A DNA stretch of 64,000 nt from Brucella pseudogrignonensis (GTDB lineage: Bacteria > Pseudomonadota > Alphaproteobacteria > Rhizobiales > Rhizobiaceae), in contig NZ_NNRM01000006.1 in the NCBI RefSeq assembly GCF_002252525.1, positions 62,001 through 126,000 of the forward strand, written 5' to 3'. Below, piece by piece: positions 42,648 to 50,764 of the stretch. The position numbers and the translations under genes were made by a program. The notes under the pieces were generated by a model that worked only from the letters and a program-made list of their open reading frames with translations, was not told where the DNA came from and did not search any database. Numbering within the stretch: position 1 is the first letter of the stretch; each line of letters starts with the position of its first letter.

Positions 42648-42789
42648 TATTTCTACTTCCTGCGTGCAAGCCTTGCTTCACCGCAGGTGTCAGAAATCAG
42701 GGCGGAAGCGCCTTGTCTTTGTCCCACGGCAACATTTCACAATGTCACCGCTACGGACGGCCGCGACTGGACACCCCTCGTGTCAGCCA

Positions 42790-43020
42790 TGGGTGACTGG
42801 ATACGGCAGGTCTCCTGACTTCCGGGTCTTCATCGGTCCTCCGCCTTCCCGAACGTGAATATTCAGTGGCTATGATCGCAACTTACGATCATGGGAGGAT
42901 GACTCGCCGGTCACAGTTGCGGGGGCAGTCTCGGTCTCAGCTCTTCAAATGAGCCTCACCGTGTTCCCTTTTCATCCATCCTTGCGGACAGAACCGTTTC
43001 CTGTGGCGAGCGATAGCAAG
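42790..43020 (-). promoter_or_regulatory. Cobalamin riboswitch
   Basis: Read on the reverse strand, the region holds the elements of the B12 aptamer in order: AAAAGGGAACACGGTGAGG, then CTGCCCCCGCAACTGT, then GCCACTG, then CGGGAAGGCGG, and finally the B12 box with GAAGACCCGGAAGTCAGG and AGACCTGCCG. It lies about 145 bases before btuB. A downstream hairpin around 42766-42800 (CACCC/GGGGTG) may form the switch that blocks expression when adenosylcobalamin binds. Confidence 0.95.
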
Positions 43021-43109: not shown

Positions 43110-44222
43110 TCATCTCAGGAAGTCGCGGAAACGACGCAGTGCAAAGAAGAAAAGAACGCTTCCGATTACAATCATGGCCAGCAATTGCGGCCACACGACA
43201 TTGAGTCCAGCACCGCGGAACAGCACCGATTGAGCGAGCATCACGAAATGCGTATTGGGTGCCGCCAGCATGATGTTCTGAATGATCTCCGGCATACTTT
43301 CGCGCGGCGTTGTACCACCCGAGAGAACCTGTAGTGGTAGCAGAACCAGCATCAGGAGAAGCCCGAACTGAGGCATAGAACCAGCAATCGTTGCTAGGAA
43401 AATGCCAAGGCTCGTGGTCGCGAAAAGCTGTAATGCAGCACCCGCTAAAAACAGCGTCAGCGAACCATTGATCGGCACCGCGAGAATGCCCTGCACAACA
43501 ACAACCAGTGAAAAGGCAGTCGCCACCAGCACCACCATCCCCATTGACCAGACCTTAGAGACCATGATCTCAAGTGGCGTCACCGGCATGACCAGCAGAT
43601 GTTCGATTGTGCCATGTTCGCGCTCGCGGATGAGAGCTGCGCCCGTCAGAATGATCGAAAGCATAGTTACCGATGAAATGACATTGGTGATCGCACCGAA
43701 CCAGCCTTTGTTCAGATCCTGATTGAAGCGCGCACGTAGGTTAAGTCCAACCGGTGTTTGCGTCTCCCCGCGATAGCGATTAACAAACTCATTCACTTCG
43801 CTCGAAACAATCGACTGCACGTAACCGCCGCCGGTAAAGGCCTGACTCATGCGCGTTGCATCGACATTCAGCTGAATCGTTGGCGAACGCCCGGCAAGCA
43901 GATCGCGCTGAAAATTCGGCGGGATATTGAGCGCAAAGGTATCGAGGCCAGAATCCATCCGTTTATCCATCTCATGAGATGAGATGAGCTTTGGCGGCAC
44001 AAAATACGGCGGATAAAACGCAGTCGTGATGCGACCCGAAACCGGTGACTGATCCTCATCAACGATTGCGATTGCCGCATTGTTGAGATTTTCCGGCATA
44101 GCCTTTGCAGCGGTATAGATCGCAAGTGTGAAGGCATAGACGATAAGCAGCAGAAGCATCGGATCACGCGCCAGTCCGCGCAGTTCCTTGACGCCAAGCT
44201 GGAATATATTGGAAATCCGCAT
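43110..44222 (-). CDS. ABC-2-type permease (YhhJ-like)
   Basis: A 370-residue ABC exporter permease with one N-terminal membrane segment, a large periplasmic domain (residues about 45-170) and five or six C-terminal segments, the ABC2_membrane_3 layout. REREHGTIEHLLVMPVTPLE is the typical cytoplasmic loop. It corresponds to YhhJ of the yhiI-rbbA-yhhJ exporter. The ATG at 44222 lies one base after the rbbA stop codon, giving coupled translation. It is last in the operon. Confidence 0.88.
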   Translation of the reverse strand: MRISNIFQLGVKELRGLARDPMLLLLIVYAFTLAIYTAAKAMPENLNNAAIAIVDEDQSPVSGRITTAFYPPYFVPPKLISSHEMDKRMDSGLDTFALNIPPNFQRDLLAGRSPTIQLNVDATRMSQAFTGGGYVQSIVSSEVNEFVNRYRGETQTPVGLNLRARFNQDLNKGWFGAITNVISSVTMLSIILTGAALIREREHGTIEHLLVMPVTPLEIMVSKVWSMGMVVLVATAFSLVVVVQGILAVPINGSLTLFLAGAALQLFATTSLGIFLATIAGSMPQFGLLLMLVLLPLQVLSGGTTPRESMPEIIQNIMLAAPNTHFVMLAQSVLFRGAGLNVVWPQLLAMIVIGSVLFFFALRRFRDFLR

Positions 44223-44223
44223 C

Positions 44224-47001
44224 TCAGCCCGCCTGCTTCTTGAGAAGTACAATGCCGAGAACGGTAAGAACCGGTATGGCAATCAGCAGCGGCAGGAATG
44301 ATCCGGCGAGATCGGAGAAATCGAGCGCCTTTGAGAAAGTCCCGCGCGAGATCGTCACGAAATAGGTCGTCGGATAAATCTTGCCGATAAACGCACCTGC
44401 CCCCTGCAAAGACGAGACCGGATCGATAATGCCAGAATATTGCACTGCGGGAATGAGTGTCAGCAATGCAGTGCCGAAGATCGCCGCAATCTGGCTATTG
44501 ATAAAGGTTGAGATCACCAAGCCCATGCCGGTCGTAATGATGACATAGAGAAGCGCCGCCGTGGCATAGGTCAGGAAACTGCCTGTGAATGGCACACGGA
44601 ATATGAAAACAGCAAAGGCCGTCAGCATCAGGAAGTTGAGAAAAGCAAGCGCGATATAGGGCAGCTGTTTGCCTAGCAAAAACTCGAACTTAGTCACCGG
44701 CGTCACATAGAAATTTATGATGGAGCCAAGTTCTTTTTCACGTACAACGCTCAGAACCGCCAACATTGCAGGGATCATCAGCAGAAGCAGCGGGATAACT
44801 GCTGGCACCATGGCCACAAGGCTCTGGACGTCCGGATTATAACGATAACGAATTTCCAGATTGAAGTTGCCGACAGTGGCGTTGCTTCCATATAGCTCGC
44901 GCGCTTTTTGTGTCAGCCAATTGGCATGCATTCCCTGAACGTAACCACGCACGGTTTCCGCTCGCGTCGGCATGGCGCCATCGATCCAGGCACCAATTTC
45001 GACGGGACGACCACGCGCGACATTGCTGCCGAAATTCGGCGGGATCTCAATTGCCAGGCTGATTTCACCTTCGCGCATACGCCGATCAAGGTCGTCATAA
45101 TCGGTAATGGGTGCTTTTTCGGTGAAATACCGGGAACCAGCAAGTTGCTGCGTGTAATCCCGACTGATCGTCGTATCGTCACGATCCAGGACAGCGAATG
45201 TAAGATCCTCGACATCAAGATTGATACCATAGCCGATAACGAACATCAGGATCACAGTGCCCAGAATGGCCAATGTCGCCCGGATCGGATCGCGTTTCAA
45301 CTCCAGCGCTTCGCGGCGTGAGAAAGCCAACATTCGCCGAGGATTTGGCAACCAGCCCGCGCGGGCCGTCGTGCTTTTCTCAACCTTTTCAGGCTGAATC
45401 TTCACCGCCTCTTGAACGGCTTTCTCAGGCGCTGTTTCGCCAATTGCTTCTTCGAGATATGCGATGAAAGCGTCTTCAAGTGTTGCTGCATTACGGCTTG
45501 CGGTAATGGCTTTTGGCGTATCGCTGATCAACACCTTACCAGCATGCATCAAGGAAATGCGATCACACAGTTCCGCTTCATTCATGAAATGGGTCGACAC
45601 GAAAATCGTGACATTGTCGTTGCGCGAAAGATCGGCAAGGATTTGCCAGAACGCATCGCGCGCAACTGGATCAACGCCTGAAGTTGGCTCATCGAGAATA
45701 AGAATATCCGGCGAATGGATCAGCGCGACAGCCAGCGACAGGCGCTGGCGGATGCCGAGCGGCATCGAGTCGGGAAGATCATCCATAACGCCAGCCAAAT
45801 CAAACCTTTGGGACAGTTCCGTGATTCTGCGCTTGGTATCTTCTTCCGCCATGCCAAACAGCTTGGCGTGAAGCTCCAGATTTTGATGAACTGTCAGTTC
45901 GGAATAGAGCGAAAACGCCTGCGACATGTAACCAACATGACGGCGTATATCGATATCCTTTGGGTCGACTTCGCGTCCAAACAGCCTTGCCGTGCCTTCG
46001 CTTGCAGGCAACAAGCCGGTCAAGACCTTCATCGTCGTGGATTTGCCGCAACCGTTAGAGCCGAGGAAGCCGAAAATCTCGCCGCGCGGAATACGGAAAC
46101 TAACATTGTCGACGGCAGTGAAATTGCCAAATCGCACCGTGACATGCTCGGCTTCGATAGCGATGCCGCTATCTGCCTGCGCATTGCGCGGTGGCATTAC
46201 TACTTCGCTGTGCCCTTGCCGAAGCTCCTCCGGCAAAAGCGCGATAAAGGCCGCATCGAGATTAGGCGTCTGGGTTTTCTCAAGCAGTTCCTGGGGTGTG
46301 CCGGTTGCAAGAATCTGGCCATCATTCATCGCAACCAGCCAGTCGAAGCGTTCGGCTTCCTCCATATAGGCCGTGGCCACAATAACGCTCATCCCCGGAC
46401 GATCTTTGCGGATATCGTCGATCAGTTCCCAAAACTGACGCCGTGATAAAGGATCAACGCCCGTTGTCGGCTCATCAAGGATCAGCAAATCAGGATCATG
46501 GATCAGTGAGCAGCAAAGACTTGTCTTCTGCTTCATGCCACCCGAAAGCTTACCAGCCGGGCGATCAGCAAAAGGCGACATGCCCGTTCGCGCCAGAAGA
46601 TCAGCAATACGGCGCTCGCGCTCGTGCTTATCGTGACCAAACAGTCGTCCGAAAAACTCAATATTCTCGAACACGGAAAGCGTCGGATACAGATTCTTTC
46701 CCAAGCCTTGAGGCATATAGGCGATGCGCGGGAATGCCGACTGGCGATGACGCTTGTCGGCAATATCGCCGCCGAGCACTTCAATCCTGCCCTTCTGCAT
46801 AACGCGAGCGCCAGCAATCAGCGACAGAAGGCTCGACTTTCCAACGCCGTCAGGCCCAATCAGCCCGACCATGCAGCCGGCAGGCACCTCGAGCGAAACA
46901 TCGCGCAATGCTTCAGTTGATCCATAGGACAGCTTCACGCTATCTGCGCGAACGACAAAGCTGTCGTCGCCCACGCCAGCCTTTATCGAAGCCCCACTCA
47001 T
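44224..47001 (-). CDS. RbbA-like fused ABC ATPase/permease
   Basis: A 925-residue protein with two ATPase domains then a membrane domain. Domain 1 has Walker [10 protein letters not shown], signature LSGGMKQKT and Walker [13 protein letters not shown]. Domain 2 has GSNGCGKST, a degenerate signature PLGIRQRLS and [12 protein letters not shown]. The last about 370 residues form an ABC2 permease ([17 protein letters not shown]). E. coli RbbA has this architecture and copurifies with ribosomes, but the operon with an HlyD and a YhhJ protein points to export. The ATG at 47001 overlaps the upstream stop as ATGA. Confidence 0.9.
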
Positions 47002-48065
47002 TTTACTGTTTCCGCGAGATTCTTCGGCCATTCAGCATTTTGATCAAGTTTCACGTAAGCCATACCCGGAAGCCCGGTTTTGACCTGCTGAATATATTTC
47101 TGAAGCAATTCCTGCGGGATTTTTGCCTTAACGCGGAACATGAGCTTTTGACGCTCTTCCTCCGTCTCAACCGACTTTGGCGTGAACTGCGCAACATCGG
47201 CTACGAAACTAATCGTAGCAGGGATCACATATTGAGGTGCGGCATCGAGCACAATACGAGCATCCGCGCCAATGGCCACGCGACCAGCCTGCGAAGTCGG
47301 CAGGAAGAAAGTCATATAGACGTCGCTGACATCCACCAGATTCAGCACGCGACCGCCAGCAGACAATACTTCACCCGGTTGCGCAACACGATATTGCACG
47401 CGGCCCGGCTTTGGCGAACGCAATGTGGCATCATTGATATCTGTATCGATGGTGGCAATCGCCTCCTTTGCAGCTTCAACCGCAGCTTCTGCATCAACAA
47501 CTTGTGCCTTTGCAGCACTGATCGCAGCCGCCGTCGCGGCGAGCTGCGCCTTTGCAGCACCCACGGCTGCCTCAGCACCCTGCGCGGTTGCGCGATCATC
47601 ATCCAGCACCTGCTGAGAGACTGTGCGCGATTCTGAAAGCTGTTGCGAACGGGCCAAACGGCGATTTGCAGCGTCCAGTTGCGCTTCGCGCTGTGCGACC
47701 GTGGCCTGAGCGGCGGTTTGCTCGGCTTCACGCTGGACAACCAAACTTTTCGCTGTCTCAATGCTTATTTCAGCGCGACGAAGCTGCGCTTCAGCCTGTT
47801 TTCGCTGGCTCTCGAGCTGGGCAGTATCCATGCGCGCCAGAACCGCGTTTGCCTCAACAAACTGTCCTTCGTCGGCAAGAATTTCGCGGATACGTCCGGG
47901 GCTTTTGGTGGATACATCGATCTCTACGGCTTCGATTCGCCCATTTCCGCCAGCAATGCCTTCCGGCAGTCCGGGGTCGCTCAGTGCTTTCCAGGCATAG
48001 TAGCCTCCGGCTACCAAAGCCACGACTACACCAGTTGCGATCCACTGCTTGCGATTAAACCCCAT
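46998..48065 (-). CDS. HlyD-family membrane fusion/adaptor protein (YhiI-like)
   Basis: A 355-residue adaptor. One N-terminal membrane segment (residues about 8-25) is followed by a biotinyl-lipoyl-like domain ([16 protein letters not shown]), a long coiled coil rich in Ala/Gln/Glu (residues about 85-210), and a beta domain ([20 protein letters not shown]). It links the RbbA/YhhJ exporter to the outer membrane, probably with TolC. It is the first gene of the operon. A perfect FNR/FixK-type dyad is centred about 41 bases before a likely transcription start upstream, so the operon may be induced when oxygen is low. Confidence 0.9.
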
Positions 48066-48176
48066 GCCGAAACATCCTCTGCGTCATCATCTTGCGGGTC
48101 CGCAAAGCAAAGCTATGCGGCAAACGATACTACTCAGTCAGATTGAATTCTGTATTTTCACTTGGGAGTGCGTGCC

Positions 48177-48190
48177 TTGATTAAAATCAA
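48177..48190. promoter_or_regulatory. FNR/FixK-type site upstream of the hlyD-rbbA operon
   Basis: TTGATTAAAATCAA matches the FNR consensus TTGAT-N4-ATCAA perfectly. On the reverse strand a possible -10 hexamer TACAGA lies 30 bases from its centre, which would place the site near -41.5, the usual class II activation position, with a start near 48142. Confidence 0.7.
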
Positions 48191-48317
48191 CTATACTCAA
48201 ATGCACCGCAATTTCATGCGTTAAATAATAAATATAAGAAAATTCGCGGGTGCCGATTTAGTGAGATGGAGGGCAATGCTGACAGCACCCGCTGGCTGTC
48301 GACAGTACAACATTGCA

Positions 48318-48436
48318 AAAAGATCGCGCTGGTGCGCTCGACAGATCCTTGAATTGTTTAAAATTAGCCGGGGCGTCGCTTTGGTTGGGCCTCGACGCCC
48401 CGGAGATTGCCGACTCTGGTGGAACTCGGCAACAAG
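48318..48436 (-). ncRNA. Candidate FNR/FixK-controlled small RNA
   Basis: No convincing protein is encoded between the two perfect FNR/FixK dyads. Read on the reverse strand from a predicted start near 48435 there are two strong hairpins: TTGCCGA/TCGGCAA (forward about 48406-48432), then CCGGGGCGTCG/CGACGCCCCGG (forward about 48369-48405). A GCGC-tetraloop hairpin (forward 48324-48341) follows and runs into TCTTTTT, an intrinsic terminator form. The predicted transcript is about 115-120 bases. The promoter has GCTAAT as -10 and the dyad at 48469-48482 centred near -41. The sequence resembles no RNA family I know. Confidence 0.45.
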
Positions 48437-48468
48437 CGATCATTAGCATCCGCTGGCGGAGGCTTTCT

Positions 48469-48482
48469 TTGATTTAAATCAA
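48469..48482. promoter_or_regulatory. FNR/FixK-type site before the candidate small RNA
   Basis: TTGATTTAAATCAA is a perfect match to TTGAT-N4-ATCAA and a full palindrome. The gene on its other side ends toward it, so it can only serve leftward transcription into the structured segment. Confidence 0.7.
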
Positions 48483-48510
48483 CCAGATAATAAATAACCT
48501 GAATGTGCCG

Positions 48511-49704
48511 CTATTTTTCAGGTCGACACTTACCCCAGGTCTTTTTCAAGTATGACGATACGCTCTTGAGCTTCGGATCAGACAAGAAACCCTGTCGAAA
48601 AAGAATACTGCCTTTGACCTCCGGTATAGCGCTGTTGAGGTCAAGCTGGCGCTTGATTTCATCGACGCCATTTCCCGCAAGCCATTCAGGCTCAGCCTTA
48701 CTCGAGGTGCCAGCGCGATAAAGTGCCATACCGATATAAAGATCAGTATTTGTGCCTTTAACTGTATCCGCCCACCATCTGACGATAGGGCCATAAGGCA
48801 CATCCTTGCGGCCTGACGACCAATAGACCTGCGGCGCGATATAATCGATCAGCCCATCTTTCACCCAGGCACGCGTATCAGCAAAGTCTCCATCATAATT
48901 GGTCTTACCCGCCCGCGTTGGCGAACCAAGCGGATCGTTAATCTGATTGCGCCAGACGCCGCCAGGGCTGATACCAAAGCGAACATGCGGCTTGATGGCT
49001 TTGATCTTGTGCGATATTTCCTGCACCAGCGTATAGGTATTGTGACGCCGCCAGTCATGCTTGCTGGAGAAATGCGTCCCGAAACGTTTGAATGTCTTGT
49101 CATCCTTGAGTGGCGAGCCCTGCGTTTCGTAATAGAAATAGTCATCGAACTGGATTCCATCGACATCATATTTCTGGACAACTTCAGCCGTGATGTTAGT
49201 GACCCACTGGCGCACTGCCGGAATACCGGGGTCAAGCACATAGCGATCCGCAGATATGCCTACCCAACCCGGATTGGTTTTATAAACGCTAGGCGGAGAA
49301 TCGCTGGAAGAATTATTCAGTTCTTTTCGCGTTGCCGGTCGCACATCCATAGAAACACGGTAAGGATTGAGCCAGGCATGTAGCTCGATTCCACGCTTGT
49401 GCGCTTGCGCGATCGCAAAGCGCAGTGGATCGAAGCCCGGATCTTTTCCGAGTGTACCCGTCAGATAAGATGACCACGGCAGATAGTCTGATTTGTAGAA
49501 AGCATCCGCAGCAGGTGAAACCTGAAAGATCACGGCGTTAATGCCATGTTCGGATGCTTCTTCAAACATTCGCACCAGTTCCTGCTTCTGGCGCTTCACG
49601 CGTTCGGAATCATCCTCAATCTGAGTGGAAGCTCTGGATGGCCAATCCAGATTAAGAACAGTCGCAACCCAGCTCGCATGAAAAGTATCGCAATCAAGTG
49701 GCAT
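48511..49704 (-). CDS. GHL10/DUF187 glycoside hydrolase-like protein (YddW family)
   Basis: A 397-residue (beta/alpha)8-barrel protein of the GHL10 family (formerly DUF187). It starts directly with the first strand (ASWVATVLNLDWPS) and carries GINAVIFQVSPAADAFY, ELHAWLNPYR and DGIQFDDYFYY, the putative catalytic acidic loop. Relatives act on cell-wall or extracellular polysaccharide and usually have a signal peptide or lipobox. None is visible here, as the barrel starts about ten residues in. It diverges from the stress protein gene. Confidence 0.85.
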   Translation of the reverse strand: MPLDCDTFHASWVATVLNLDWPSRASTQIEDDSERVKRQKQELVRMFEEASEHGINAVIFQVSPAADAFYKSDYLPWSSYLTGTLGKDPGFDPLRFAIAQAHKRGIELHAWLNPYRVSMDVRPATRKELNNSSSDSPPSVYKTNPGWVGISADRYVLDPGIPAVRQWVTNITAEVVQKYDVDGIQFDDYFYYETQGSPLKDDKTFKRFGTHFSSKHDWRRHNTYTLVQEISHKIKAIKPHVRFGISPGGVWRNQINDPLGSPTRAGKTNYDGDFADTRAWVKDGLIDYIAPQVYWSSGRKDVPYGPIVRWWADTVKGTNTDLYIGMALYRAGTSSKAEPEWLAGNGVDEIKRQLDLNSAIPEVKGSILFRQGFLSDPKLKSVSSYLKKTWGKCRPEK

Positions 49705-49809: not shown

Positions 49810-50253
49810 ATGTATAAGAATATCCTAGTCACCACAGATGGTTCAGAGTTTGCAGAGCGCGGTCTCATTCATGGATTTGATACCGCGAAAGCCATGGGTA
49901 GCAAGGTGACGGTCCTCACCGTGACCGCCCCCTATTCGCTTTCCGGCCTGCCTGGCGGCTTTACTGACAGTCCGGCCTTTATCGAGCGTTATGAAGAAGA
50001 ATGGAACGATTACGCCGATGCTGCACTTGCCCGCGCCCGTGAACTGGCAAGTCAGGCTGGCGTTGAAATCCATACATTGCATGTCGTGGCGCAGCATCCA
50101 GCCACCTCAATCATTGAAACCGCAAAAGAATTGCGCAACGACCTGATTGTGATGGCGTCGCATGGTCGCCGTGGACTGAAAGGCATGTTGCTCGGTAGTC
50201 AGACCTATGAAGTCGTTACGCGAAGCACTGTTCCGGTGCTGGTGGTTCGCTAG
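49810..50253 (+). CDS. Universal stress protein (UspA family)
   Basis: A 147-residue single Usp domain. ILVTTDGSEFAERGL starts the fold and the nucleotide-binding loop is ASHGRRGLKGMLLGSQ, matching G-2x-G-9x-G(S/T), so it should bind ATP. Such proteins raise survival under starvation, oxygen limitation or oxidative stress. GAGGG precedes the ATG. An FNR-like dyad upstream and a flavin-binding protein gene just downstream (convergent) suggest induction in low oxygen, as seen for FixK targets in rhizobia. Confidence 0.92.
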   Translation: MYKNILVTTDGSEFAERGLIHGFDTAKAMGSKVTVLTVTAPYSLSGLPGGFTDSPAFIERYEEEWNDYADAALARARELASQAGVEIHTLHVVAQHPATSIIETAKELRNDLIVMASHGRRGLKGMLLGSQTYEVVTRSTVPVLVVR

Positions 50254-50255
50254 AT

Positions 50256-50690
50256 TCAACCGGCCTGATGACCAGTGGCGCTTTCAATATCAACGCGAAA
50301 GAAAACAGGTTCCAGTTTGCGTTGCTCGCCGCCACTGGTGATGGTCTTGGTATAAGCAGGCTCCCACCATGTCGGCTCGTTTGAGAGCATATTGACGATC
50401 GCAGCCTTTTCTTCCTCGCGCGTGATCTCGCGATAATGACCGTTCACCACAACGCTACGCCATTCCGTTTTTGAAATGATGTGATCGAACAAAATGCAGA
50501 CCGCATCATTTTTCCGCATAGCCTCAGTCTTCTGACCATCGGTAGTGAAGGAATAAAGCGCCCCACCGCTGAATCGAAAACCGAGCGGCACCACAAATGG
50601 TCGATCACCAAGAATATAACCCAACCGCCCGATCTGGGTATGCTGGATCATATCACGGACATCAATTTCAGACATTTCCTTGATTATCAT
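50256..50690 (-). CDS. Pyridoxamine 5'-phosphate oxidase-like flavin-binding protein
   Basis: A 144-residue split-barrel protein of the PNPOx-like FMN-binding superfamily. It begins with [20 protein letters not shown] and continues [20 protein letters not shown]. Small members bind FMN, F420 or heme; the substrate is not known. It is convergent with the stress protein gene, with only two bases between the stop codons. A TTGA-N6-TCAA dyad lies 60 bases upstream of its start. Confidence 0.85.
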
Positions 50691-50750: not shown

Positions 50751-50764
50751 TTGACCGCAATCAA
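50751..50764. promoter_or_regulatory. FNR/FixK-type site upstream of the PNPOx-like gene
   Basis: TTGACCGCAATCAA fits TTGA-N6-TCAA, with one change from the best FNR consensus. On the reverse strand TATAGT (forward 50729-50734) is a good -10 hexamer downstream. Its distance puts the dyad near -36, slightly closer than the usual -41.5. Confidence 0.5.

Follow-up and report, generated by a model that had tools for sequence, protein, structure and literature searches.

A conserved pseudoknotted RNA, probably oxygen-responsive, predicted behind an FNR-type box in Brucella pseudogrignonensis

The window analysed here is a stretch of 64 kb (64,000 nucleotides) from Brucella pseudogrignonensis, and the element in question is a predicted non-coding RNA on its minus strand, in the gap between a GHL10 gene (48511-49704, minus; Pfam PF02638) and hlyD (46998-48065, minus). 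The original prediction had placed a small RNA under FNR/FixK control in this gap, between two perfect TTGAT-N4-ATCAA dyads (48177-48190 and 48469-48482). Both dyads are present, and the window contains no other perfect one. As had also been pointed out, the neighbouring GHL10 gene cannot be served by the second dyad (box 2), which its 3' end faces. The features of the locus are given below, with pairing percentages that refer to an alignment (A1) of 29 distinct sequences, from which the duplicate L002 was dropped and outside which L036 and L043 lie.

48469-48482, minus: FNR-type box 2 (TTGATTTAAATCAA), promoter element of the RNA, perfect match, predicted to span -48 to -35
48442-48447, minus: -10-like GCTAAT with a T before it (TGCTAAT); TG[CT]TA is conserved after box 2
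48245-48434, minus: predicted non-coding RNA of about 190 nt, from the conserved block in A1 and the fold score; both ends inferred
48406-48433, minus: hairpin H1, 98.1% of cells paired, three pairs with double-sided change
48414-48425, minus: loop of H1; CCACCAG is present without change in all 29 sequences
48368-48403, minus: hairpin H2, 95.9% of cells paired, five pairs with double-sided change
48296-48344, minus: hairpin P1 (CTGTCGA/TCGACAG), 100% of cells paired; one of its seven pairs varies, on one side
48326-48337, minus: GCGC hairpin inside P1, read as a terminator in the original prediction; 100% paired, inner pairs never vary
48308-48316, minus: 5' arm of the pseudoknot (GCAATGTTG), pairing with 48273-48281
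48273-48281, minus: 3' arm of the pseudoknot (CAGCATTGC), in the P2 loop, pairing with 48308-48316
48246-48292, minus: hairpin P2 (GCGGGTGC/GCACCCGC), all eight pairs invariant in the 29 sequences
48177-48190, minus: FNR-type box 1, which goes with hlyD and not with the RNA
42788-43013, minus: cobalamin riboswitch (Rfam), beyond the exporter operon

The RNA region was found in 32 of the 35 genomes of the genus, and a structure of 47 pairs was scored on A1. Over the 1337 cells, 98.7% pair, compared to a mean of 94.8% in 500 shuffles, none of which was as high, and twelve pairs show double-sided change, as many as were seen in only one of the 500. In a sliding control the pairing falls to 30-48%, and RNAalifold returns largely the same nested helices. 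The GC-rich hairpins that had been described are present (48316-48438, minus, folds with -46.8 kcal/mol, z -3.7). Of the three stems for which compensatory changes had been anticipated in relatives, H1 and H2 show them, while the GCGC hairpin is conserved but invariant. The two hairpins of the 3' domain, P1 and P2, are joined by a loop-loop pseudoknot of 9 bp, which the original prediction did not contain and which was first spotted by eye in the alignment and counted afterwards: its 8-pair helix is 99.6% paired, with double-sided change in four pairs, and one invariant pair adds to it. It is the minus strand whose folding is maintained, since A1 contains 117 G-U cells against 4 A-C cells. Accordingly, 1319 of the 1337 cells are paired in the sense orientation and 1206 in the antisense one, and the fold z-score is -4.13 for 48240-48436 (minus) compared to -1.37 for 48225-48472 (plus). 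An RNA from the plus strand was considered and is less likely, given this asymmetry and the weaker plus-strand fold. A coding function was rejected as well, in line with the expectation that no convincing protein is encoded: each of the six frames is interrupted by a stop in at least one of the 29 sequences.

The extent of the element follows from its conservation. Invariant positions amount to 46 of 116 in 48433-48318 and to 44 of 73 in 48317-48245, whereas there are none among the 11 positions directly upstream of the RNA and none among the 6 directly downstream. As the T-run after the GCGC hairpin is not conserved and the sequence beyond it is more densely conserved, as far as about 48245, we take the RNA to be about 190 nt long, so that the 115-120 nt of the original prediction are not supported. 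For the same reasons the supposed terminator hairpin is considered to belong to the pseudoknotted domain. Judging from the comparison of sequences, the locus almost certainly holds a real, conserved non-coding RNA gene.

Box 2 is centred on 48475.5 and is followed by GCTAAT at 48447-48442, which places the predicted +1 at about 48434. In 30 loci, TG[CT]TA follows box 2 after 19 nt (17 loci) or 20 nt (12 loci); the spacing is unmeasured in L023, where the GHL10 gene is interrupted and box 2 is present. The box centre would therefore lie at about -41.5 and the predicted 5' end on the start of H1, at 48434 or 48433, so that the -10-like element and the spacing of about -41 had been read correctly. 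The -41.5 position is that of class II FNR promoters, and -10 elements of the GCTA type are known in alphaproteobacteria. A perfect box 2 occurs at the equivalent place in all 32 carriers of the RNA, while a perfect box 1 is found in 18 of the 23 loci with hlyD and in none of the seven without it, which is why box 1 is assigned to hlyD and box 2 to the RNA. On this evidence an FNR-type box sits at the activating position of the RNA's own predicted promoter, and an FNR-type regulator very probably activates it.

The genomic context of such boxes was also considered. With up to one mismatch, the window contains nine FNR-type sites, for a shuffle mean of 3.64 (nine were reached in 1 of 100 shuffles), and the whole genome has 19 perfect sites compared to one for the reversed-pattern control. 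The adjacent protein was identified for seven of the perfect boxes of the genome: 5-aminolevulinate synthase, ccoN, hemN, pseudoazurin and FtrB above the NCBIfam cut-off, and a cytochrome b561-like protein and a NarK-family transporter below it. Several such genes are typical of low-oxygen regulons. The protein encoded beside hemN carries an N-terminal cysteine cluster and has FnrL, FixK and Fnr as its top matches, each below the cut-off; it is a plausible FnrN-type activator. Within the window, a one-mismatch FNR-like site (TTGACCGCAATCAA, 50751-50764) precedes a pyridoxamine-oxidase-like gene (50256-50690, minus) by about 60 nt, with a universal stress protein gene (49810-50253) nearby.

The three genus members that lack the RNA (G010, G028 and G032) give chance-level model scores (best E 0.245-0.574). 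All three keep the GHL10 gene, no FNR box was found in the 900 nt that follow it, and in G010 and G032 it is followed by a cobalamin riboswitch. In a nucleotide tree of ctaB (one gene, support values not considered), G028 branches first, whereas G010 and G032 fall together with the carrier G017, an indication that these two have lost the RNA. With the model R1 and a limit of E 0.01, 12 of 297 genomes of the family match: six are genus genomes, with 176-205 bits, and six are weak, with 17-27 bits. Among 397 genomes of the order, the window's own is the only strong match, accompanied by two weak ones, and there is a single match within the window's genome. The eight weak matches outside the genus (L037-L042, L110 and L111) have no perfect FNR box in their locus and were treated as chance; L110 and L111, the two of the eight checked for coding, lie inside long open frames. 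There is no convincing relative outside the genus in these 297 and 397 genomes, searched with strict filters that could miss remote relatives, and the core pattern has no match in viral contigs. In named genomes, the exact pattern has 24 matches, which belong to Brucella, Ochrobactrum, Falsochrobactrum or unassigned Hyphomicrobiales/Rhizobiales (near records may be omitted). None of the 24 bears the name of a classical Brucella species, although an exact pattern cannot prove absence.

The explanation we favour, with a probability of roughly three in four, is that 48434-48245 (minus) forms a gene of its own, the product of which would be a non-coding RNA of about 190 nt that likely acts in trans through the H1 loop. 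An FNR/FnrN-type regulator would switch it on at low oxygen from a class II promoter (box 48482-48469, -10 GCTAAT). In its 5' part the transcript would form two hairpins whose loops are exposed, and in its 3' part a domain in which the pseudoknot locks two further hairpins together. The H1 loop, with its invariant CCACCAG, would pair with the start regions of mRNAs and lower their translation at low oxygen, while the 3' domain may stabilise the RNA or offer a handle to a protein. The element is thus probably an undescribed oxygen-responsive regulatory RNA, for which antisense regulation is the most likely mode of action and protein or ligand binding the main rival. The core of the original prediction, a structured non-coding RNA on the minus strand behind an FNR-type box and independent of its neighbouring genes, is supported, and it withstands the refuting condition set for it, as its relatives do show compensatory changes.

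Several results weigh against this explanation or parts of it. The number of further pair types (34) is in weak excess of the shuffled mean (31.8) and was matched by 29 of 500 shuffles. P2 and nearly all of P1 are conserved without proof from covariation, because their pairs do not vary. In a scan of all column pairs, seven of the ten assessable structure pairs rank 26th or better among 3357; many unrelated pairs rank as high, however, since clade structure inflates covariation. The poly-U end, a mark of Hfq-type trans-acting sRNAs, is not conserved either: the 15 nt after P2 contain 3 to 10 U, depending on the clade, in the set of 30 loci. A consensus sigma-70 scan did not return the GCTAAT promoter, its sole promoter-like site being at 48217-48190 (minus). 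The last point is that no target is established: the start of the candidate ctaB matches the H1 loop in the three genus members lacking the RNA as well.

The complement of an 8-mer of the H1 loop occurs before ATG 72 times in the window's genome, compared to 15 times for the reversed control; in a four-genome screen with the 8-mer, eight regions were chosen by eye among the matches listed. The exact 10-mer has 32 sites, one of which is the RNA locus itself, and 30 of the 31 others were examined. In these 30 loci, ctaB is the only case where the site is at most 30 nt from the left end of the longest open frame (elsewhere alternative starts are possible). The ctaB start, AUG UCU CUG GUG GAA, offers 11 nt of perfect pairing with the loop of the window's RNA. 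The ctaB product belongs to the UbiA family, and we presume it to be heme O synthase from its position behind what is presumably the C-terminus of ctaD. With 31 sites, 5000 genes and 40 nt for each, about 0.6 sites near some gene start are roughly expected by chance, so a single site of the ctaB type is not significant and its appeal is one of functional coherence. The 8-mer complement is found at the ctaB start in all 34 genus genes examined (30 + 4; G022 has no usable copy and lies outside the 34), preceded by TCG in five of the 30, and in none of the 17 ctaB genes located in the family (28 loci, 11 of them not located by motif). As the members lacking the RNA have the match too, it is accounted for just as well by ancestry or codon use. 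Across the genus (L120-L151), members without the RNA included, the DNA of ctaB is nearly invariant in codons 2-7, while later codons vary. We regard ctaB, in its aa3-oxidase cluster, as an unlikely target on sequence grounds. A shade less likely still is the wider proposal of a new, genus-restricted RNA family, induced at low oxygen and pseudoknotted, whose 5' hairpin would shut off the supply of heme O and heme A to the aerobic aa3 oxidase (via ctaB) while FNR induces the cbb3 oxidase. Loop-complement matches were also seen near the start of four short open reading frames (L195, L198, L201 and L203). Three of these (L195, L198 and L203, about position 1500) share a leader ending in TFWWN, with the match about eight codons in, and are possibly a small gene family.

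The most serious alternative is that the structured RNA has its effect through a bound protein or small ligand, with the pseudoknotted 3' domain as its working part. Conservation is indeed highest in the 3' part, with 44 of 73 positions invariant, and the fold of this part is tertiary-like, and the search described above yielded no convincing antisense target. An invariant, exposed 5' loop is however typical of a pairing seed, and no protein partner or ligand is known, so that we see this as conceivable but not likely.

Alternatively, the RNA could be a cis-acting leader that starts from box 2 and serves a downstream gene, either the hlyD operon or the gene of the cobalamin (B12) riboswitch. 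Both the RNA and hlyD are on one strand, and read-through is possible since there is no clear terminator. The content downstream nevertheless varies by species while the RNA is constant: hlyD adjoins the element in 23 of the 30 loci and is absent from the stretch examined in the other seven, all of which retain both box 2 and the RNA. Of the 23 loci with hlyD, 18 provide that gene with a box 1 of its own. The seven loci without hlyD all have a cobalamin riboswitch downstream according to Rfam, which speaks for a leader, and six of the seven have it by motif, at 96-195 nt (motif distance); in the window, however, the riboswitch is 5 kb away. A leader function is accordingly considered improbable. 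The exporter operon (43110-48065; hlyD, fused ABC and ABC-2 permease) varies in presence among species and lies between the RNA and the riboswitch at 42788-43013, which forms the common downstream border of this variable region. Box 1 is 113 nt upstream of the operon, which may itself be under FNR-type control.

Just as improbable is a shorter form (48435-48318), ending at the T5 run, as the main product in the window's clade. The GCGC hairpin and T-run of the original prediction do exist in the window, and at least four T follow the hairpin in 14 of the 30 loci, the window's own included. The T-run is not supported as a terminator: it is missing from the other 16 loci, and a terminator scan of 48000-48560 reported none. 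In addition, invariant positions are denser past the T-run, and the sequence beyond it pairs back with the hairpin. Finally, ordinary intergenic hairpins or a decayed element without any product are hardly credible in view of the genus-wide conservation, the strand-specific compensatory change and the constant box.

Gamma- and betaproteobacteria have oxygen-responsive small RNAs (sRNAs) controlled by regulators of the FNR type. The element resembles FnrS of enterobacteria in being an intergenic RNA behind an FNR site that is presumed to be induced without oxygen; it differs in its greater length, its pseudoknotted 3' domain and the lack of a clear U-rich terminator. No family of Rfam 15, FnrS included, matches at its gathering score, in agreement with the earlier view that the two are unrelated in sequence, and the best match below threshold is isrB on the plus strand (18.7 bits, 35 required). 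With AniS, PhrS and SicX, which are sRNAs under FNR/ANR-type regulators, the concept of an oxygen regulator controlling an sRNA is common; no similarity was established, and no direct comparison was made. Among the families of trans-encoded sRNAs of Rhizobiales derived from S. meliloti, some have members in Brucellaceae and conserved loop motifs (PMC3927594), and the main text of that paper does not mention FixK, FNR or oxygen. In contrast to those families, as far as that text describes them, the strong matches of the present RNA are confined to its own genus among the 297 family genomes. The RNA is not described in the literature searched, including what was covered of PMC9751625, PMC3927594 and PMC7143759, and the searches returned no FNR-type oxygen-responsive sRNA for the Brucella/Ochrobactrum group; supplementary tables were outside their scope.

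If the favoured explanation is true, the genus would have a precisely placed and conserved RNA gene, with a covariance model, mappable ends, a suggested seed and a pseudoknot backed by compensatory changes. It would also come with one concrete target hypothesis, in which the sensing of oxygen bears on which terminal oxidase is used, and if the doubtful ctaB reading were true, the RNA would be an RNA arm of the oxidase switch.
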